Shown here one piece after another: positions 6,528-61,800 of a DNA stretch of 64,000 nt. Numbering within the stretch: position 1 is the first letter of the stretch; each line of letters starts with the position of its first letter. The position numbers and the translations under genes were made by a program. The stretch comes from Nereocystis luetkeana (taxonomy: Eukaryota; Sar; Phaeophyceae; Laminariales; Laminariaceae): contig JARUPZ010000035.1 in NCBI GenBank assembly GCA_031213475.1, positions 988,336 to 1,052,335 on the forward strand, written 5' to 3'. The notes beneath the pieces were generated by a model. The model searched no databases, was not told where the DNA came from, and saw only the letters and a program-made list of their open reading frames with translations.

Positions 6528-7060
6528 GGGCACTCACTCGCGCTATATACCCGTACTCCTGGGCACTCGCTCGCGCGATATACCCGTACTTCTGGGCACT
6601 CGCTCGCGCCATATACCCGTGCTCCTGGGCACTCGCTCGCGCTATATACCCGTGCTCCTGGGCACTCGCTCGCGCGATATACCCGTACTCCTGGGCACTC
6701 ACTCGCGCTATATACCCGTACTCGTGGGCACTCGGTCGCGCGATATACCCGTACTCCTGGGCACTCGTTCGCGCTACCCGTACTCACTCGCGCTATATAC
6801 CCGTACTCCAGGGCATTCACTCGCGCGATATACCCGTACTCCAGGGCACTCACTCGCGCGATATACCCGTACTCCAGGGCACTCACTCGCGCGATATACC
6901 CGTACTCCAGGGCACTCACTCGCGCGATATACACGTACTCCACGGCACCCACTCGCGCTATATATCCGTACTCCAGGGCACTCACTCGCGCTATATACCC
7001 GTACTCCTGGGCACTCGCTCGCGCTATATACCCGTACTCGTGGGCACTCACTCGCGCGAT
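6528..7060 (+). repeat. 33-bp minisatellite array, block 1
   Basis: About 15 units of 33 bp, consensus GGGCACTCNCTCGCGCTATA followed by TACCCGTACTCCT. Because 33 is a multiple of three, several frames on both strands stay open for 250-490 codons and read as 11-residue repeats. This is a consequence of the period, not evidence of a gene. Confidence 0.95.
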
Positions 7061-7185
7061 ATATCTGGTATGTATGCGTATCTAGGGAAAATAAGGACTC
7101 AATTTTTGGTTTTCTGTGCAACCGGTGCACTACGGAATTATGTCGGAAAAACAAAACAAAAAAAAACACGCGCACGTCTGGGCAC

Positions 7186-7735
7186 TCGCTCGCGCTACAT
7201 ACCCGTGCTTCTGGGCACTCGCTCGCGCTATATACCCGTACTTCTGGGCACTCACTCGCGCTACTCCTGGGCTCTCGCTCGCGCTATATACCCGTACTTC
7301 TGGGCCCTCGCTCGCGCTACATACCCGTGCTTCTGGGCACTCGCTCGCGCTATATACCCGTACTTCTGGGCACTCGCTCGCGCTATATACCCGTACTTCT
7401 GGGCACTCGCTCGCGCTACATACCCGTACTTCTGGGCACTCGCTCGCGCTATATACCCGTACTTCTGGGCACTCGCTCGCGCTACTTCTGGGCACTCGCT
7501 CGCGCTATATACCCGTACTTCTGGGCACTCGCTCGCGCTACATACCCGTACTTCTGGGCACTCGCTCGCGCTATATACCCGTACTTCTGGGCACTCGCTC
7601 GCGCTACTTCTGGGCACTCGCTCGCGCTATATACCCGTACTTCTGGGCACTCGCTCGCGCTACATACCCGTACTCCTGGGCACTCACTCGCGCTATATAC
7701 CCGTACGTCTGGGCACTTGCTCGGGCACTCGGTAA
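7186..7735 (+). repeat. 33-bp minisatellite array, block 2
   Basis: About 17 units of the same monomer. Most carry CTTCTGGG where block 1 carries CTCCTGGG or CTCCAGGG, so each block homogenised separately. Four units are shortened, having lost the ATATACCCGTA segment (7262, 7484, 7606 and the terminal one). Confidence 0.95.
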
Positions 7736-31139: not shown

Positions 31140-31392
31140 TGTTATGATCACAGGTCTGGACACTTTGTATCCCTGGACAGGTTTGCCTATTAACTCGGTA
31201 CTCGTACTCGTTGGTACTCACGTGTGTTGTTTGCTTAGAGATAAAAGAAGGGCCAAGCTCGTGCCTCGCTGGGAAAACCCCTGGTTTTCCATCTAAGATA
31301 CGCCTCCCAAGTCCTACATATATATACGATCCCAATACTCGAACCCAGGTAATTACCGGGCTTTCCGCCTCATTCAAGGCAGTATCATAACA
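31140..31392 (-). mobile_element. LTR of Ty3/gypsy element (left copy, 3' LTR of the minus-strand element)
   Basis: 253 bp bounded by the inverted pair TGTTATGAT...ATCATAACA. It shares GACAGGTTTGCCTATTAA, GAGATAAAAGAAG, GCCAAGCTCGTGCCTCGCTG, CCATCTAAGATACGCC and CTTTCCGCCTCATTCAAGG, in the same order and orientation, with 41978-42253. On the minus strand it is preceded by a weak purine stretch (AGAGTGGG) that could be a polypurine tract. Confidence 0.8.
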
Positions 31393-31948
31393 CTAGCCCA
31401 CTCTGATGAGACATATATGCAGAATTATGGGATATTCATGGAAACCCCGATTCCACGAACTAGACCATGAGTCGAAGATGCGACTCCGCAAAACCCACAC
31501 CCACACCTCTGAATGGCGAGGCAACGAACCCGGCAAGGTACGTAAAAAAAGAAAGAAATGAAGGCCTAACCGTAAGGGACTGGAAGCAATCGTCAACGAA
31601 AGTTATCGCCATGCCACCCGCAACGGGGGGGTCGAGGGCAAATAAGATTCATGGAAAAGCGAAAAATGAACACCGAAAACGAGAAGAAAAATACCACGGA
31701 ATACGCCAAGAACCACCTAAACCCAGCCCACAACTCTGTAAACGCGTCCTGTGCCACAAATGAGTGGCCCTATCACCCAGACCTGCCCCGGCACTGAGGG
31801 GGGGGTACGCAGGACAAAATACGCAAAACCCATCTCCAACCCAGCCCAAAAAAAAACAAACCAGAAACACACCGAGCAGAAAAACCACCCCCCGAAAGTC
31901 CAGGAAAACGACAAGAAAAAATATCGAGTGAAGCCGAGAAGCGAAAGT
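31393..31948 (-). other. 3' untranslated region of the gypsy element
   Basis: Between the left LTR and the last recognisable coding segment. A/C-rich on the plus strand, no domain recognised. Confidence 0.4.
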
Positions 31949-32790
31949 CAGCTATCCATGGCGGCGCCTCGAGATTCATCTACGTTAGGCTGGACCCCCC
32001 GTGCAAACGCGCTAGCCAAGTGAATTTACAGACACCAAGAACTTCGTACCTCTCTCGTCGAAGTCGTGTAGCGCGCCGGAGAAAGAGGAAGCTTGATCGG
32101 TCCCGGGTCGTTCAAAAATCGAACCAAACATACTCCATCCGTTGGCGTAGTCGCGCTGATTTTCCCGAGCCACCACAGACCGTCGTCGCCCCTGTGCCAA
32201 AAGTGGGCCCCGTTGGCAAGCACGGTGATGCAGTATCGACGAAGCCAGTCGGCGTGCAATAGGCAGTCATAGCCGGGTGCCAGAAACCGCTCTCTCCGAG
32301 AAAACTTCCGTTGTGCCGCGTCGATTATCATTCGGTGGTACAGGCGGTTGGTTTGGCGGTGCTGGTTCGGGGTGTCAGCCCAGCAGCGCAAAATTGCGTG
32401 GCGAGAAAGCTGAAGGTCCATTTCCAGTTCCCAGGATGGACGGGATAATCCTGTCCAGTACGTGTCGTGCATCACCGCGATGACGCCACCTCGACCTCTA
32501 ACCGATTGGTGTCCGGTAATGTTTTCCACTTTGGCTCCCCACTGGGGCCGTCTGCCGTCCAAGGCACCTGGAAGCCCCCGCTCCGCTGACCGCGTACCCA
32601 GCCAGCCCGTGGAGCCAGCTGCTTCTGCTCTGGACCAGAGCACGTCGGACAAACCTGGACGCAGCGCTCTCCGCCATCGGGTCTACCTGCTTCTGGGCCA
32701 GATGAGGGAGTGTTTGAGACTGTTTTTCCTCTCGTGTTCTTCTGCTGTCCGACTCTGCTCGTACTCGTCGGATGGCCACGAGCGATGCTG
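31949..32790 (-). pseudogene. Gypsy Pol C-terminal tail with Tudor/SH3-like domain
   Basis: Minus-strand frame from about 32790 to 31949. A basic segment (SRHAILRCWADTPNQHRQTN) precedes LHADWLRRYCITVL, then GAHFWHRGDDGLWWLGKI and VCLVRFLNDPGPIKL. The aromatic WWLGKI and VRF strands resemble a Tudor or SH3-like barrel, as in chromatin-binding tails; it is not a classical chromodomain. The frame has one in-frame TAA (32022 region) before its natural end. In such elements this segment follows the integrase, but no integrase core is present here: the inverted gag block occupies its place. Assignment to the same element rests on strand, position inside the LTR pair and composition. Confidence 0.6.
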
Positions 32791-35700: not shown

Positions 35701-36435
35701 GGGCCCCGTCCCACCAGCATTGGTCGCGGCCAGGGCCGGACGCTTCCCCAGTCGCCTGCTGGGCAGACGGGATCGCGCAATAATCCGCTTGTGTTGAGCG
35801 TCCACAAATCCATCCCTGACTGCCTCGACCCGTGGTTTGACACCTCTTCTAGCTGCTGGCCCCTAGAAGAACACCACTACGCTGAAGTTCACGCTGTATG
35901 CATGTCCATCCAGACAGAGGACCCTGCCCTCTGGAGCGGCGTTTTTTCATCGTCCGCCCGCGCGGTCGTCCTCAGCGAATACCGAGGTCATTGCTTGAAC
36001 TACCACGAAGACTCACACTCCCTCACACAGTGTAGACACCCCTTTCGAAATCTTAGCGGCATTTTGAAGCCTGACCTCGGAACGCTAGGTGACGACGGCG
36101 AGGCGTTCCTTCGTTGGCAAGAACGCATGATCAGACACCGCCGCGAGAACAATTCACGATCGAACAAGCACAACCAGACGAAACAAAGGCGTCGTTCCGG
36201 CCACTCGCGTGGGCAGCACCACGGCCAGGGTCTGCAGAACAGACAAGGTGGCGACTATGACACACACGCGGAACGAGGACACCAACAGTCTAACTCCAAC
36301 CATCACGGTGGTGGTTCCACCTCTCGTGCCTCTTCCACCCCAGCTCCCGCCTCGGGGGTTCGCTACGGTGCTTCGCATGACCCGGGCGGAAACCCGAACG
36401 GACGCCAGCCAGGCATCTTCCGCGCCGGTAACTGA
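32772..36435 (+). pseudogene. Gypsy Gag remnant, inverted relative to pol
   Basis: Starts at ATG 32772 and can be followed through three frames: 32772-33600, then about 33600-34030, then 33985-36435, the last with stops near 34237, 34255, 34900 and 35605. The order is: Ala/Pro-rich N-terminus; Ala-rich, probably coiled-coil segment (SERTARRRAHALTAAEQEAS); Arg/Ser-rich basic linker (34.4-34.8 kb); a globular part beginning KHLGLKDISRISVLPFP (34970), likely capsid; and a CCHC-type zinc knuckle near 35990-36040, CLNYHEDSHSLTQC, in which the second Cys is Tyr. A Gly/His/Gln-rich tail follows. Several frameshifts and stops make it inactive. Confidence 0.65.
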
Positions 36436-37404
36436 CAGGTCGACGGCGGTTTGCCTCCTCCTACTGGTCCGCCGCCAGCATTGCCGGGAGGAAAAACATT
36501 GATTTCACAAGATGCTCGCGTCCCAGGCTTGCTCAGGGCTCAGCGCCGGCCTTTTTTCCCGCTCCTACCCCGCGCGTTGCTTTGTACTTATGGACCGACG
36601 CAGCGACTCAGCTCCACTGGTTTTACCGGGGAGCCCCCAGGCGTCTTCCCCGACGTCGGGAGCCCGCGCCTCAAACTCCGCTCCCGTCAACCTGGGCACG
36701 AGAGCAGGCACGATAAACGCCGCTCTCCCGAACCACGCATCGTGCAGCACCACGAGGGTCGCGCCGTCGCGTCGTTTTTTTCAGCGAGGGTGTCCCCCTC
36801 CCCCACCTCCCGGCCATGCAGTGACGGTCGGTTTGAGGTGCGGAAAGGCCAACATTGAAACCCCGAGATCTCGGTTGAAGCTCGACTCGGTGTTTCCTCG
36901 CAATAACGGTAGCTGCTCCAAACTTTTTCCTATCAAGGAGGAGTCGACAAGAGTAGCTACCTCGTCCCCCTTCCCCACCAGGTCTACAGGACGGAAGCCC
37001 TTTTCGGTGGACCCTTTGTTGCCTCCCCCTTGAGCACCGTTCTTGACGTCGTCTACAGGGTCTGCAGGCTTTCTTTTGTCTTCGCGCACGCCACTCCACG
37101 TGCCAGCGCTCCTTCGGCACCAGTGGCAGAGGAGAAACCTGCCACTGCCCGTCGAGCCACTCGTGACTCCACGGCCCCCCGTCAGATCAACCGGGCAGCA
37201 TACCCGTGAAATTCGGAAGAATCGCAGCAGCAGACCGGGCTCAGATTCCCCTGCCCCCTTTGGTCTAGGATAGAGATCATCGGGCGCAGTAAGAGAACTT
37301 TCTGGGCGATTTTTTGCCTACGGGCAATGGTGACACAAAGCCAGTATACGTGGAACCGGACTCGCCTCGTGCATCAGGGGCTCAGTGTTCACAGGGAAGC
37401 AAAC
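36190..37404 (+). repeat. Inverted-repeat arm 1 (Gag C-terminal tail)
   Basis: This 1.2 kb is repeated on the minus strand at 40735-41975 at high identity (shared words include GCTCGCGTCCCAGGCTTGCT and GTCGGTTTGAGGTGCGG). Arm 2 has an extra copy of a short GACGTCGGGGAAGACG-type unit (41475-41525). Arm 1 ends at about 37404, in the middle of the segment that in arm 2 leads into the NADAR domain. Confidence 0.85.
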
Positions 37405-39926
37405 CCCCCCACACACACACTAGCCCACTCGAACCGACACGAGGGGTCGGCGAAGAGCGAGTGCGAAGCCCGCAGGCTCGTATGAGGAAAATACCACCGT
37501 CTTCGACGGGGGTGGGGCTGATAGACCCACTGCGGTCGTGTTCTGTGGCGGACTCCTGCAAGCGGGAGAGAAAATCAGCATCTCCGTAGGCGCTGCCCTT
37601 ACGGTACTTGAGGGTGTAGTAGAACGCATGGAGGACCTCGAGCAACCGTTGGACGCGCGCGTTATGGTCCCTTACTTTGCCGATACTCCCAAGTGATTTG
37701 TGGTCCGAAAGTATGGGAATCTTTGTGCCCCATAGGGAACTTCGGAGTCGTTTTGATGGCCAAGACAATGCTGCCTGCTTTCAAGTCTAGCGGGGTCCAG
37801 TGCCTTTCGAAATCGAGGGTAGCGCGACTGATATAAGATGGGCCGCACTGAGCCGTCCGGTAGTTCTTGTTCGAGCGCGGCACCAAAACCGTCGATGCAG
37901 ACGTCACAGTACACGTGGACGGGCGGGAACCGTCGGCTACAGCGTCGCGGTCCGGGAAGATCAAAATTGGCGGGGCAGCGAGCTCGGCGAGGATCTTGCG
38001 AACGATAACTTCCTAGGCCGGCATAAAGACGTACTTAACCCCCTTCCGGAGAAGGGCGGTGAGAGGGCGGATCACGATAGACAGGTCGCACAGGAATTTG
38101 CGATAATATCCCACGCCGCCCATCAGCGCACGGGCCTGCTTGAGGTTCTTGGGCATGGGCAATTTCATCTAAGCCGAATGTTTTTCCGCGTTGGGGCGTA
38201 TACCCGCGGGCAAAATGGAGTGGCCCATAAATTTTGCGTCCGTGGCGCCAAGGCGAGCCTTCGAGGGGGAGAGCTTGAGGTTGTGTTGGCGCAGGCGTTC
38301 GAAGAGGGCTCGTATCGTCTACGATCCTCTTGATGTGGGCCGCCGGATCAGAGTCGAAGATCATCACATCATCGAGGTAGGCCGCCACCTGTGCCAGACC
38401 TTTAATGACTTCGTTAATCACTTTGACGAACCAGCCGGGCGAAGCATTACCGCCTTGGGGCATGAAGAACCACTCGTAGAGGCCCGTGGGGGTGCAAAAC
38501 ACTGTGAGAGGGACGGTGTCCTTGTGCGCGGTAATCTGGTGGAACGAGGAGACCAAAGCGAAGGGGGGAAAACACCCGTTCCTTCCCCAGGGAGTCGAGG
38601 ACTTGGTCCACGCGAAGAATAGGCAGATGGCTGAGGCGGCTGATATAATTGAGTTTCTTTTAGTTCACGGTGATCCGAACGCCTCCAGACTTCGTCGGGA
38701 TGACCACCAGCGGGCTCAAGTACGGAGAGGTCGAGCGCTGGATCAGGCCGGCCGCCAGGTACTGGTCCAAGGTGGCCTCCAACTCCTTGGCCATAATGGG
38801 ATTGAACCGGTGCGGCCTGGACGTGACAGGAGCGCTACCTCCAGAGACCGAAATCACGGAAGACATCAACGAGCAGAAACCAAACCGACTCGAACTTCGA
38901 GAAAACGTCAGGAAATTCGCGGAGAACACCTCCCAGCACTTCGATGGCCTCAGGGGTCCAGTCCGTGCTGTGAAGATCAGAAGAAAGCGCTCGCAGATGT
39001 AACGTCAAACGTGCCCAGACGCGCAGGAACGAAGCGCGCTGTTCTGGGCTCAAACGCTCGAGTAGTGCAGGCGAGGGCGGGGCTGGAGGTGCGAGGGGTG
39101 AAGCTGTAACTGCGGAGACGGGAGCCACCTCAGATAAACCGAAGGGAGGGCTGGGGGCTCTGTTGTCCTGCTGCAAAACGTCCATCGGGACGCTCAGTAG
39201 TGGGCCGTGGATGACGTCGAGATTATCCCCCGATTCGAGATCTGCCACTCTAACGAGGGGAAGAACCTGCCGCCCGGAAGCGACGAAGTGCTCCTCAACC
39301 GAGGGTAGGTCGGGCAGGGGCATCATGTCGACCAGGTAGTGTCCAGTGAGTGCCGGAGAGGCCATCGTGGCGAACCAAGAAGTTGGGGACCGTCGGATAG
39401 GGTGACGCCTACAGCGCCCTCGTAGCGTAGATGGAACCCTCCAACCGAAGCGGCGGGGTCGATGGCGTAGACGGACGTGCCTGTCGGGACGTGGTGAACT
39501 ACGCCCATCTCGCCGAAAACGCGTGGGTCTGACGGCCGAGGTGGCAGAGAGCGGTAGGAGCGGCTATTTTAACGCATCCAGCCGCGACGTCCCAGCAGTA
39601 CTGCATGCTGCATCACGGAGGGGGGAACCACGCAGACCCACACTGCGAGGGAGAACGTAGGTTCATTTTCTCCAACAAAGTGGACGTTCAGACGCACACT
39701 TGTCGCAGAGGGGCCGATCCACCAAAACCCAAAAAGAACGAGGGGTGCATTTCTGCTTGCACGTGGTGGATGCCGCACCAACGGAAAGTATGCGATCCAA
39801 AATATTTCGTCGAATGAAAGTCTGCGGGCAGCCAGTACCAAGAAGCTCCACGCAACAATAAGGCGCAAGAACGCCAGCTCCGCTGTGAATCGCGAGTTTG
39901 GTTGTAAAAGAGGCGTCGTCGAGGGT
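37405..39926 (-). pseudogene. Ty3/gypsy Pol remnant: protease, RT, RNase H
   Basis: Read from high to low coordinates. The aspartic protease core lies at about 39926-39570; the active-site triad at 39839 reads GTG instead of DTG (context VELLGTGCPQTF), so it is inactive, and a frameshift follows. A linker covers 39509-38960. RT begins with RPHRFNPIMAKELEATLDQY (about 38810) and SPYLSPLVVIPTKSGGVRI, shifts frame, and continues with VSSFHQITAHKDTVPLTVF, GLYEWFFMPQG and the catalytic YLDDV box (38380-38370). RNase H lies at 37914-37440 (VYCDVCIDGFGAALEQEL, then SDHKSL and KGSAYGDADFLSRL), again in more than one frame. Order protease-RT-RNase H is that of Ty3/gypsy. It ends at the inversion point near 37404; integrase is missing. 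Confidence 0.85.
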
Positions 39927-40193
39927 AATGGTGCCCCCGACGAGGCAGGGGCCGTGTTCTGACAGCGCGAGGGAGGGGTCGACACTAGGGGCGCCCGCCA
40001 AAACCTCGGGGCTGTGATCAGCGGACGCGTCAGAAAAACAGGTCGAAAACTCCGAGGGAGGACCTGGGCATGCGCAGGCCTCGGCCGAAAGGCGTGGCGG
40101 CGCTGGTGAAATCTCACGAATTCTGTCAGTTGTGGTCGGAGTGAACAATTGATGAGAGGAGGCGGGGTGTGCCAACCCCGCCTCACTTGAGCA

Positions 40194-40625
40194 AACGGTG
40201 TCGCGAACGGCGGAAAGAGCTTTCCCGAGATTTTTTTTCCCACGCCATCGAGAGGGGTCTTGAGCCTCGGGGTCTTCTGCCCGGAGACCGATGCCCCCCA
40301 CGGGGTCAAAAGGGCTGGCTTCAGCCAATTGTTTTGTGCCAGTGCTCGCTAGGTGCTGCTTCATCGCTGGGTTCTGCGTTAATTTGTCAAAATAACCAGC
40401 AAGGACGGCGCCTCTCCAAAAGCAGTCCCAGAAAGCGCAATCGAAGATATGCACGCCTTGACCTAGGCGTTTGTGCTCGCGTGGATCTGGCGAGGCCATA
40501 ACCCGCTCCGCTGCGTCGTGGTCCTAAAAAACGCGGGCCTTTTCAGCCATCAAATACTGCTCCACGCAGGAATATGACACATCGTCAACGACAAAAGACG
40601 AGGGGGACCACTGCGAAAAATAGAA
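40194..40625 (-). pseudogene. NADAR (YbiA-like) domain inside gypsy polyprotein
   Basis: Continuous 144-codon frame broken only by one TAG (about 40526). Family landmarks in order: FSQWSPSSF, YSCVEQYLMAEKA (with the conserved Glu), MASPDPREHKRLG, TQNPAMKQHL then LAEASPFDPV, GIGLRAEDP, and KKNLGKALSAVRD. These match the whole YbiA/NADAR fold (usual length about 150 residues), except that the Trp expected in the D-x-WG-x-G motif is Gly. Known members act on ADP-ribose-linked or riboflavin-pathway N-glycosides; a role in a retroelement is inference. The domain lies in frame between the Gag tail and the protease, so it belongs to the element, not to a neighbouring gene. The stop looks like a single Gln-to-amber change. 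Confidence 0.85.
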
Positions 40626-40734
40626 GGGGGGTCTGCCAGAACAGTACCAACCGCTCCGTTGAATACTCGAGAGTAGGGTTAAAACCGACGGTGCCGAGTC
40701 ATCGGTGGCCGCAGTTGCGGTGTGTGGGGGAGGG

Positions 40735-41975
40735 AGTGTGCTTCTCTGAGAACACTGAGCCCCTGATGCACGAGGCGAGTCCGGTTCCACGTATACTGGC
40801 TCTGTGTCACCATTTCCCGTGGGCAAAAAATCGCCCAGAAAGTTCTCTTACTGCGTCCGATTATCTCTGTCCTAGATCAAAGGGGGAAGGGGAATCTGAG
40901 CCCGGTCTGCTTGACAAGAGCTACGATTCTTCCGAATTTCACGGGTATGCTGTCCGATTGATCTGACGGGAGGCCGTGGAGTCACGAGTGGCTCGACGGG
41001 CAGTGACAGGTTTCTCCTCTGCCACTGGAGCCGAAGGAGCGCTGCGCACGTGGAGTGGCGTGCGCGAAGACAAAAGAAAGCCTGCAGACCCTGTAGACGA
41101 CTTCAAGAACGGTGCTCGAGTAGGAGGCAACAAAGGGTCCACCGAAAAGGGCTTCCGTCCTGTAGGCCTGGTGGGGAAGGGGGACGAGGTAGCTACTCTT
41201 GTTGACTCCTCCTTGATAGGGAAAAGGGTTGAGCGGCCACCGTTATTGCGAGGAAACACCGAGTCGAGCTTCAACCGAAATCTCGGGGTTTCAATGTTGG
41301 CCTTACCGCACCTCAAACCGACCGTCACTGCATGGCCGGGACCCTCGCTGAAAAAAACGACGCGACGGCGCGACCCTCGTGGTGCTGCACGATGCGTGGT
41401 TCGGGAGAGCGGCGTTTATCGCGCCTGCTCTCGTGCCCAGGTTGAGGGGAGCGGAGTTTGAGGCGCGGGCTCCCGACGTCGGGGAAGACGTCTGGGGGCT
41501 CCCGACGTCGGGGAAGACGCCTGGGGGCTCCCCGGTAAAACCAGTGGAGCTGAGTCGCTGTGTCGGTCCATAAGTACAAAGCAACGCGCGGGGTAGGAGC
41601 GGGAAAAAAGGCCGGCGCTGAGCCCTGAGCAAGCCTGGGACGCGAGCATCTTGTGAAATCAATGTTTTTCCTCCCGGCAATGCTGGCGGCGGACCGGCAG
41701 GAGGAGACAAACCGCCGTCGACCTGTCAGTTACCGGCGCGGAAGGTGCCTGGCTGGCGTCCGTTCGGGTTTCCGCCCGGGTCATGAGAAGAACCGTAGCG
41801 AACCCCGAGGCGGGAGCTGGGGTGGAAGAGGCAGGGGAGGTGGAACCACCACCGTGATGGCTGGAGTTAGACTGTTGATGTCCTCGTTCCGCGTGTGTGT
41901 TATAGTCGTCACGTTGTCTGTTCTGCAGGCCCTGGCCGTGATGCTGCCCACGCGAGTGTCCTGCCGTCGACGCCA
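40735..41975 (-). repeat. Inverted-repeat arm 2 (Gag tail next to the right LTR)
   Basis: Minus-strand copy of 36190-37404. Here the Gag tail (HSRGQHHGQGLQNRQ) starts only a few bases inside the right LTR, so the primer-binding site and the N-terminal two thirds of Gag have been deleted from this side. It runs without a break into the NADAR-containing frame (MPTGNGDTEPVYVEPDSPR at 40826). Confidence 0.85.
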
Positions 41976-41977
41976 CT

Positions 41978-42253
41978 TGTTATGATCAGAGATCAGAACA
42001 CTTTTAATCCTAGGACAGGTTTGCCTATTAAGTCTGCACTCGTACTCATGTGTGTTGTTTGCTGAGAGATAAAAGAAGAGCAGGCTGTATTCCTTTCATG
42101 CACGCGGAGACTGAGAGCCAAGCTCGTGCCTCGCTGGAAAAACCCCTGGTTGTTCATCTAAGATACGCCTTCCAAGTACTACAGATACGACCCCAATACT
42201 TGAACCCAGGTAATTACTTGGCTTTCCGCCTCATTCAAGGAAGTATCATAACA
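41978..42253 (-). mobile_element. LTR of Ty3/gypsy element (right copy, 5' LTR of the minus-strand element)
   Basis: 276 bp, TGTTATGATCA to AGTATCATAACA, same orientation as 31140-31392. It is about 20 bp longer, with an insertion near 42090 (TTCCTTTCATGCACGC). Flanking 5-mers do not match those of the left LTR, so no target duplication is preserved. Confidence 0.8.
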
Positions 42254-43028
42254 CCTGCCCATGAAAACCCATTTTTTTTCAAGCGCCTGAACATTAAGCG
42301 TGTGGCCTCCAAAATCTGATTTTTCTTGTTTTCTTTAGGGTATAGGTACCATGGGACCCACTTGGACCTGCAGAGAGTCGCTCCGTTTGGTTGGCTGCGG
42401 TGGAAGCGCCAAGAGTATTTATTCTGGCACCCCCCCCCCCCGTTGCCAGCTCTCAAGCTTCTCGACTATCCTCGCGGAACGGCCTGCTCGGTATGAAATT
42501 ATCTTGCGTTACCAGACTTGAGACCACCTCGACGCGGGGTGGGGCAGGCGAACTGCCGTGCTTGTCCACGGTGCTGTAACATGACTCCGGTGACCACGGA
42601 AAACAACAAAACATACATCGCAACAACCTAACTGATGCACATCGTACACCTCAAAAAAGGAAATGTTAAATCGGCGAACGTGTGTATGTGAAAATACGTA
42701 CGTACGAGTACAGAGTTTATATGACAAGAATTTCAACCGAGGGACCGCAGACGCACACGCAGAGAAAAAGCAGTGTACGTATGGCCTCTCTGATTGGTTC
42801 AAAATTGATCAAAATCAGTTGAAAGCTAGACCGAGTAGACAAAGTCAGGTATACCATGGCCTTTTCGAGCCAAAATCAGGTACGGTGTCCATGGCCTTTT
42901 CGAGCCAAAAGCAGGTACGGTGTCAGTCTGGCCAATAGCAGGGCTGCTGGCGTTTGATTTGTACTTGTTCCAAGCATTAATTAGTTATGGCCCAAAAGTG
43001 GCCAGGTATACCTGATTTCGGCTAACTC
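42254..43028. other. No gene; short direct repeats
   Basis: A poly-C run (42431) and a 36-bp unit, AGCCAAAATCAGGTACGGTG followed by TCCATGGCCTTTTCG, present two to three times (42846-42920). A related CAAAATCAGGTAC word occurs left of the gypsy LTR at 31045. Confidence 0.5.
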
Positions 43029-58800: not shown

Positions 58801-61800
58801 CGCTAGCCCGTCCGTCCGCCCGCCCCCTCGCCTTCCGCGTTCCTGTTCAGCCGTGTTTCGTACCTGCGGAAGCTCACCCCTCAGCTGCGCGACCACTCTC
58901 TTGATCAGAAAGTTGCCCAGCTGCACACCCTGCAGGCCCTTCTGCGTCGAGGAGATCGAGTAGAAGACCGCGCATCGGGCCTGCGCTCAGACGGAGGCGG
59001 CGGCGTTAGCGGCGGCGGGGGGACAGGGGCGCGACAGAAATAATTAAGAGGAGGAGGAGGAGGAGGGGGAGGGGGAAGGGGAGGGGGAGGAGAAGGAGGA
59101 GGCGCGTCTGTTTACCCGATCGAACGCGAGGAAGCCAGGCGTCGGAGACGGCGGGTCCGAGGCGAGGGCGAGGGCATACGGCAACGAAAGCATCCGATGG
59201 TCTACAGCTGAGCACCGCGCACCGCGGCCGCTGTGCTGCACCGTGGTCGATGCGCCGGGCTACCCTCACCTACGTAGCTGATGTTTCACAAAAATACCAC
59301 TAAAATAACTCAAACTCTGAATATAGAGTGAGTCGTTGGCCGCCGAATGTGGGTGGAGTTGTGACTTCAGCATCAGGAGGAGTTAGGCAGTGGCACCGAC
59401 GAAGGAACCGGCTGCAGTCGCCTATGCTGCTTTAACCGTGCACCCCTCTTCAATGATCAAGATCACAACATCATGGCGTACCGCGAACAATACCGGTAGT
59501 GCTCCGCAAAGCGCGGCTTGCCGACAGTTTGCATTTGTTTTTTCCAGTTTCACCATGCGCGCGGGCCCTACCCCCTACCCTCGCCCCTTCCCTGTCTCGA
59601 AAACGATGCGAGGTCGATGGTCAAATGACTAAGGCCAGGAACAACTGAGTACCCTGAGTACCCCTCCCCCCCTCCCCCCGTACCTATGGTCATATTTTGT
59701 ACCACTACGGCCATGCATGGCATGAACACACACCCCCCCTCCCCCCCGCCTCCCCCCTACGACGCTTATACACACCTAAACCCCCGACCCGCAACAAATT
59801 ACACGCATGTTAAGCCACGCAGGTGTCGACCGCACAGCATTTCTATTGGAACGTAAAAAAAACAACACATTGAACGAAAAATGCCTCCTCGTTCACCTCT
59901 TCCTCCTTGCAAGTACTCCCCCCCTCTTTGTCGCCACCGGCACCGTTGTTACTGCCGCCGCTGCCACCGCCGCCGCTACCGCGTCGAACGTCTTCCATGC
60001 TCCCAGCCACCTCGGGAAGCAGCGCGACGTGCACAAACACTAGCGGCTCCCCGGGCAGGCAAGGGTGGAAGAACGCGAAGCACCGGCGGCCTCGTCCCAG
60101 GCGGTGCTTCAGCTCTGACAGGGAGCGCACGGGATGCACCGCCTCGTAGCTATACCGTTCAAGGCGGGAACGAGCGGTGCGCGACGGCATCAACACGGGG
60201 AAGACTTTTCAGCACCGGATGGGCTTGGGCGGGGCGTGCGGGGGGGGGAGTACTCATGTCATGCATGGGCGTAGTCGTATGACCATAGCATAGACCCTCG
60301 CATCCGTACAATGTCGGGACGGAGCACGTCGGGTTTCGCCGGCCAGGCAGACACTGCTTGCACCAAGCGCGAAGAGCTGAGAGGTGTTGGGCGAGTCGCA
60401 TGAAGGGTAAAGGAACTGCATCCTACCAAAAAAACGCTTGTGAGGCTGACTTTCTTGCATGTTGATGACAGCATCGAATTAATTGATTTGTTTTCTGGGG
60501 TGACCCGCGGGGGGAGGGGGGTGCCACGTCCGCAAATGTTGCTCTTTTTCAGGCCACGCCAGGCGCCGCTCATCCTCCCGTAAACTGCTTCATAGCTGGA
60601 CGAACAGCAGAGCACACTGCGAATGAACGGCAGAGTCCTGTGTGAAGGAAGGCTCCACGCCACCGCCTTGGTCCAGACACAGCCACAACATCACATCATG
60701 GCTGGCATATCGGAGAAAAAAAAAGAAGGCACAATTCCGCCGGCAAAACATCCCCACTTTATTGGACGTTTTACCGTGATATTTCTTGCGCGTGCAAGTT
60801 TCGGCTACGACACCCATGCACGAGCCCTATCATGTCCATCAGGTAGACCACACCGGGCATGACTCTGTATATACCTGGCATATAGCCATATGTCGTTACC
60901 GGGAAAATATCCGTCCCGGCCATGTATCGATACCGGGAATACATCGGTACTGGGCACATATCGATACCGGGAACATATCCGTACCGGGCATATATCGTTA
61001 CCGGGGACATATCCGTACCGGGCATATATCGTTACCGGGAATGTATCCATACCGGGCATATATCGTTACCGGGAATACACCCGTACCGGGAATATATGGC
61101 TACCGGGAACAAATCCGAACCGGGCATATATCGTTACGGGGAACATATCCGTACCGGGCATATATCGTTACCGGGAACATATCCGTACCGGGAATATATC
61201 CGTAACAGACATATATCATTACCGGGAACACATCCGTGCCGGGCATACATCGTTACCGGGAATATATCCTAACCGGGCATATATCGTTACCGGGAATATA
61301 TCCTAACCGGGCATGTATCGTTACCGGAAATATATCGGTACCGGGAATAGATCGTTACCGGGAGCATATCGGTACCGGGAATATATCGTTACCTGGAATA
61401 TATCCGTACCGGGCATATATCGTTACTGGGAATATATCCGTACCGGGCATACATCATTACTGGGAAAATATCCTTGCCGGGCATATATCGTTACCGGGAA
61501 TATATTCTTACCAGGAATATATCGTTACCGGGAACATATCCGTACCGGGAATATATCGTTACCGGGAATATATCCGTACCGGGAATATATAGTTACCGGG
61601 AATATATCCGTACCGGACATATATCATTACCGGGAATATATCATTACCGGGAATATATCCGTACCGGGCATATATCGTTACCGGGGATATATCCGTACCG
61701 GGCATATTTCCTCACCAAAAACCTGGTCAAACCGGGGGCATCGCCTTGCCGGGCACACATCCATGCCTCCTTACCGGACATTTACTATTGCCTGGTACCG

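Follow-up and report, generated by a model that had tools for sequence, protein, structure and literature searches.

Results

A NADAR domain directly upstream of the protease in a Ty3/gypsy Pol

The window analysed here is a 64,000-nucleotide stretch of the brown alga Nereocystis luetkeana (C35:988336-1052335; C35 is contig JARUPZ010000035.1 of an assembly of 465 Mb and 1,987 contigs). It contains an inactivated copy of a Ty3/gypsy retrotransposon in which a NADAR (YbiA-like) domain is located directly 5′ of the protease in Pol. Further copies in the same genome support NADAR before the protease as a feature of a Ty3/gypsy lineage and not a one-off insertion. In open-frame copies, NADAR is predicted to be packaged as part of the polyprotein and to strip ADP-ribose off guanines in the RNA or cDNA of the element, a reading to which we give a probability of about 0.55.

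As shown in Table 1, the minus strand is the coding strand of the whole element, with NADAR, protease, reverse transcriptase (RT) and RNase H in that order. A sequence-only reading of this DNA had named six NADAR motifs interrupted by one stop; all six were located exactly at 40200-40619 on the minus strand, and the single in-frame stop was confirmed. The profile match, a check set beforehand, was obtained with PF08719 in both open pieces, of which the 107-codon piece is by itself below the curated cut-off of 35.1 bits. P0045 and P0025, two relatives from outside the genome, align along the 286-codon piece. The protease called degenerate by the same reading has a substituted active-site motif, and it shares strand and frame with NADAR as had been claimed. 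The upstream spacer described there as a Gag tail also lies on the same strand, but its frame is not continuous because of stops and frameshifts. The zinc-knuckle-like gag stretch itself, which that reading had missed, lies beyond RNase H in inverted orientation (plus strand).

The lesions of the window copy comprise the in-frame stop, frameshifts upstream of NADAR and through RT and RNase H, the substituted NADAR active site and protease motif, and the absence of the integrase core: the integrase cores of the copies on contigs C1 and C11 have no counterpart in the window at E 1e-8. In the second NADAR piece, substitutions affect three of seven active-site positions, and the window copy thereby does not keep the ADP-ribose contacts of its lineage. 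It is of the L156 type, members of which are up to 78% identical to the window piece, and from NADAR through RNase H its DNA is ∼84-86% identical to same-genome copies.

Copies in the same genome

We scored 150 of 778 NADAR candidates in the genome, and all were above the Pfam cut-off (best E 2.0e-50). Stop-free frames of at least 2,000 codons hold 47 of the 150 scored matches, by our count. Forty-eight copies were taken, namely the eight best and 40 picked ones; 27 of the latter were selected because their frames reach 2,000 codons or more, although one of these contains a stop. At 90% NADAR identity they form eight clusters, and in 38 of the 48 NADAR and the protease motif share one open piece. 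No copy without NADAR was seen among them, all own-genome copies having been found through NADAR and chosen by NADAR score and frame length. Contig C1, which makes up 4.7% of the assembly, holds 54 of the 150 scored matches where ∼7 would be expected; candidate selection may contribute to this excess.

The same-genome copies show the domain order NADAR-protease-RT-RNase H-integrase. On C1 and C11, RT, RNase H and integrase models were matched by separate downstream pieces, giving the order protease-RT-RNase H-integrase of Ty3/gypsy elements (Metaviridae). The downstream pieces scanned for the C18 copy matched RT and RNase H and gave no integrase match. The nearest solved structures of RT are those of Ty3 (4ol8 and 7q5b), with E 2.3e-9 for the window piece and 1.2e-65 for the C1 copy. 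The proposal that a Ty3/gypsy lineage carries NADAR before its protease is supported by the same slot in many same-genome copies and by the active-site residues kept in them. A stretch 3′ of integrase in L205 and L211 is conserved and looks chromodomain-like by eye; Pfam reported none.

Active site, constraint and divergence of NADAR

Active-site residues were numbered after the Phytophthora nicotianae NADAR (PMC11543638) and mapped through an alignment with its structure, 8bau. In the 48 own-genome copies, E43, K50, R79, W89, D130 and W133 are present in 48/48, R93 in 47/48, E125 in 45/48 and K75 in 42/48. The ADP-ribose-contact residues, including the last-strand glutamate of the YbiA type, are therefore kept by the lineage in 42-48 of 48 copies; the exceptions at E125 are three lysines.

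Constraint on NADAR is stronger than on the linker that follows it, as judged from sequence comparison. Between diverged subfamilies (54 pairs, aligned columns), identity is 47% for NADAR, 21% for the linker and 41% for the protease. With gaps counted, the same pairs give 45%, 19% and 17%, the low protease value arising because many proteins end inside the protease. The ratio of nonsynonymous to synonymous differences per site (pN/pS) was calculated, uncorrected and over non-independent pairs, for 46 of the 48 pieces, L161 and L192 being left out. Only within-family values are given, because synonymous sites are saturated in most NADAR comparisons between types. In the three own-genome families with at least four distinct sequences, pN/pS is 0.50, 0.49 and 0.47 for NADAR, 0.79, 1.04 and 0.50 for the linker, and 0.70, 0.77 and 0.89 for the protease.

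Comparison of the four main types gives identities of 71-83% for RT and 43-53% for NADAR, a usable RT piece being present in 16 of the 17 copies; the oddest pair, L161/L194, has 83% in RT and 49% in NADAR. Domain swapping had been suspected from RT at 75% versus NADAR at 50% between two types; it is weakened by the finding of 43-53% NADAR identity among all four.

Relatives outside the genome and fold models

The best 120 of 128 relatives from the protein search were analysed, and most of them are short fragments. By strict patterns, the canonical protease motif occurs in 31 of these 120, the NADAR motif of the last strand in 41, and the two together in six. In the alignment columns of the same set, R79 is found in 44/48, W89 in 40/51, K75 in 39/46, E125 in 54/67, D130 in 54/68 and W133 in 60/68; the R93 column has arginine in 22/51 and lysine in 21/51. 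Longer proteins came from a further search, on contigs of up to 2.48 Mb. The 286-codon piece had no confirmed relatives among viral and bacterial or archaeal contigs. A search with the domain alignment (A2) gave 75 viral loci and 112 bacterial or archaeal ones (80 kept), which served only to supply outgroup candidates for the trees.

A YbiA-like fold of the lineage's NADAR was recovered in a model of the relative P0026 (mean predicted local distance difference test score, pLDDT, 70; >90 in most domain blocks), which matches 8bau at E 2.3e-12 and E. coli YbiA (2b3w) at E 4.0e-8. The model of P0230 (mean pLDDT 61) predicts NADAR, a low-confidence linker and a retropepsin resembling feline immunodeficiency virus (FIV) protease (E 6.1e-4). 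Two other proteins, P0266 and P0268, are ∼570 aa long, with NADAR N-terminal and a long, unassigned C-terminal extension.

Proposed function of NADAR

NADAR, standing before the protease in Pol, would enter the particle, and the neighbouring protease would cut it free. Once freed, the domain would work on the RNA genome or the cDNA. A host or microbial ADP-ribosyltransferase may tag guanines and so hinder reverse transcription, and NADAR would reverse the tags. Counter-defence would be the most likely benefit of the domain. NADARs strip ADP-ribose from guanine in DNA and RNA via residues that are mostly kept here, according to PMC11543638, PMC11125620 and PMC11833690. The constraint on NADAR and the retention of its active site are what a working enzyme would leave. 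Processing of RNA intermediates is proposed in PMC12477816. For NADARs in animal RNA-virus polyproteins, PMC9503650 proposes host ADP-ribosylation as the target.

Several results weigh against the proposed role. A small molecule may be the substrate, since the best NCBIfam model for NADAR is TIGR02464, a riboflavin-intermediate N-glycosidase, and PMC9503650 argues that NADARs of viruses may favour ADP-ribose derivatives that are soluble. Twelve of the 23 outside relatives compared cover all nine active-site positions, and only three of the 12 (P0230, P0231 and P0252) keep all nine; R93 is cysteine or serine in 10/23 and E125 is lysine in 2/23. Retention of the active site and constraint are overstated for the own-genome copies, because these were selected on NADAR score and frame length. 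A two-copy fourth family has a NADAR pN/pS of 1.74, on seven differences, and between types NADAR diverges faster than RT.

The main rival, possible in our view and clearly less probable than guanine removal, is that NADAR leaves the element's nucleic acid alone and instead clears small metabolites of the ADP-ribose or riboflavin type, or RNA-repair by-products. The known role of YbiA agrees with this, as do TIGR02464 and the suggested preference of viral NADARs. The NADARs tested in print, however, take ADP-ribosylated guanine in DNA and RNA as their substrate, and the fixed place of the domain in Pol near RT would suit action on the element's own nucleic acid. It is rather improbable that NADAR has given up catalysis and now serves Pol in a structural or RNA-binding capacity. 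Such a role would fit the fast divergence of the whole domain relative to RT, the substitutions in outside relatives and the own-genome changes at E125 (3/48) and K75 (6/48), but it sits poorly with ADP-ribose contacts kept in 42-48 of 48 copies although about half of the NADAR positions differ between types. Accidental insertion of a NADAR gene into a single element copy, for which we see practically no chance, is refuted by the same slot in many copies, in several subfamilies and in Ectocarpus.

Removal of ADP-ribose from the element's guanines may belong to a wider scenario, which we consider unlikely as a whole and a little less probable than the clearing of metabolites: a whole algal Ty3/gypsy lineage would carry an eraser of ADP-ribosyl-guanine that stems from a stand-alone NADAR gene of the host. 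In the particle, the eraser would undo ADP-ribosylation of the element's genome by a host anti-retroelement defence, and it would diverge fast in arms-race fashion while its active site stays fixed. Should NADAR act on nucleic acid, its presence in these elements would hint that algae defend themselves against retroelements by ADP-ribosylation. An additional enzyme retained as a regular component of Pol in several subfamilies of an LTR-retrotransposon (LTR, long terminal repeat) would be unusual as well.

Comparison with known NADAR systems

The arrangement is already published for Ectocarpus, and the present case is another assembly. PMC12477816 describes a single Gypsy lineage of Ectocarpus sp. 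7 (e.g. Gypsy-12_Ec32) whose Pol has an N-terminal NADAR. Judged by title among the matches listed, it is the sole report of NADAR in LTR elements in the literature on NADAR or YbiA with retrotransposons, gypsy, brown algae or stramenopiles. The view of the sequence-only reading that NADAR is no standard part of gypsy elements therefore holds in general and fails for this published case. New here are the retention of the active site, the constraint, the model of NADAR with retropepsin and a tentative link to brown-algal stand-alone NADAR genes.

A putative chromodomain after integrase is reported for the Ectocarpus elements in PMC12477816, comparable to the chromodomain-like end seen by eye here. 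The window copy differs in being dead and rearranged; it was likened to Gypsy-12_Ec32 by the published description. Stand-alone NADAR/DUF1768 proteins of brown algae (P0152 of Pylaiella, P0171 and P0210 of Ectocarpus, P0186 of Scytosiphon) have the same domain, but they are 227-252 aa long and, in the form retrieved, do not belong to a retroelement polyprotein. Esi0017_0056 is a further protein of this kind, as given in PMC7922944. Fold and active-site positions are shared with the P. nicotianae NADAR and E. coli YbiA, which are stand-alone enzymes. The NADARs of animal positive-strand RNA viruses, as described in PMC9503650, likewise lie in a replicative polyprotein and have a proposed counter-defence role, but these viruses are not reverse-transcribing. 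The ORF1 proteins of Tx1 LINE elements in Crassostrea gigas (PMC12477816) place a NADAR-like domain in a retroelement, but this is a non-LTR element and the paper describes the hits as divergent. Unlike the DarT1-linked NADAR antitoxins, which have aspartate in place of the last-strand glutamate, the own-genome copies have glutamate in 45/48 and lysine in 3/48. No DarT was found among the Pfam matches of the pieces scanned.

Origin of the domain

Among the best 120 of 6,329 matches of the domain search, stand-alone NADAR proteins were found in Pylaiella, Ectocarpus and Scytosiphon, with close relatives in Nannocystis. In two trees, a branch supported at 97/89 and 96/90 has the gypsy NADARs on one side, next to five stand-alone proteins of which four are from brown algae and one is from another eukaryote; the 25 gypsy rows of the second tree have 84/70. 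In a third tree, which includes same-genome copies, five rows of the L161 and L194 types split from the remaining 27 gypsy rows, which no longer have the stand-alone genes as sister. Approximately unbiased (AU) tests on the third tree did not reject a single gypsy clade (p 0.249) or a grouping of gypsy with the stand-alone genes (0.263). Joining the gypsy domains or the stand-alone genes to the bacterial group with Nannocystis was not rejected either (0.271/0.312 and 0.254/0.185). Capture of NADAR from a host stand-alone gene is only a lead. PMC12477816 suggests horizontal transfer from bacteria, whereas two of our three trees put the gypsy domains beside brown-algal genes and the third does not. 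The stand-alone proteins P0152, P0171 and P0186 have a cysteine-rich, zinc-finger-like N-terminus by eye.

Layout of the element and other features of the window

Comparison with same-genome copies gave the layout along the minus strand. An LTR-like repeat (42261-41978) is followed by spacer, NADAR, protease, RT and RNase H (41963-37418). The integrase slot is occupied by a plus-strand inverted stretch (35998-37420) with the end of gag and a second copy of the spacer, the part from 32532 onward being unassigned. Next come the terminal portion of Pol with the 3′ region of the element (32531-31477) and the other LTR-like repeat (31400-31140). A pol inverted inside a plus-strand element had been considered and was dropped, as same-genome copies show a minus-strand element with gag and spacer inverted. 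Kimura two-parameter (K80) distances are 0.046 between the spacer arms and 0.118 between the LTR-like repeats, so the ∼1.2-kb arms look younger than the repeats or homogenised. No matching target-site duplication flanking the TG...CA pair was found by eye.

Table 1. Coordinates of the element and its parts in the window
Feature	Position	Strand	Remarks
LTR-like repeat TG...CA, 3′ side of element	31140..31400	.	89% identical to other copy, 247 ungapped columns
Post-integrase end of Pol, with 3′ region of element	31477..32531	-	Same-genome downstream piece L208 79%; ends of L211 and L205 match
Zinc-knuckle-like gag motif	35992..36033	+	Pattern scan, sole match in window; one ligand position differs
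Arm A: inverted second spacer copy and gag end	35998..37420	+	36199-37420 pairs with arm B; own-genome L158 matches 35998-37420, 86%
RNase H fragments, two frames	37385..38034	-	RT_RNaseH_2 7.9e-5 (below cut-off), RT_RNaseH 1e-5
RT fragment, Ty3-like	38038..38664	-	RVT_1 E 9.9e-11; own-genome L210 85% identical (DNA)
Region between protease and RT	38838..39563	-	P0045 (501 aa, one open frame) aligns 40229 down to 38723, four pieces
Retropepsin-like aspartic protease	39666..39941	-	Aligned with relatives holding canonical motif; active-site motif 39807-39845 substituted
Open piece, 286 codons: rest of NADAR, linker, protease	39666..40523	-	PF08719 profile 54-161 of 163, 81 bits, E 1.5e-22
NADAR (YbiA-like) domain with one in-frame stop	40197..40631	-	PF08719 in both open pieces; motifs located
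In-frame stop inside NADAR	40524..40526	-	Boundary of two open pieces
Open piece, 107 codons: spacer and N-terminal NADAR	40527..40847	-	PF08719 profile 9-52, 25.8 bits, E 1.4e-5
Arm B: spacer upstream of NADAR	40720..41961	-	95.5% identical to arm A, 1204 ungapped columns
LTR-like repeat TG...CA, 5′ side of element	41978..42261	.	Orientation as in 3′ repeat

The gag label of the plus-strand region 35992..36033 is a weak and putative one. The stretch has a pattern which we take to be that of a gag zinc knuckle. L206, the upstream piece of an open-frame copy, matches window 35956-36162 at E 6.3e-12, and no gag was found by Pfam in the window open reading frames (ORFs) scanned. A beta-rich conserved region without Pfam match lies between protease and RT (P0230 residues ∼430-545; window ∼39200-39540, minus strand). 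Elsewhere in the window, 20 further ORFs had no Pfam match above cut-off, and ARAGORN and Rfam scans gave nothing. Two long tandem arrays are located at 6528-7723 (33-base units) and 60887-61707 (34-base units).
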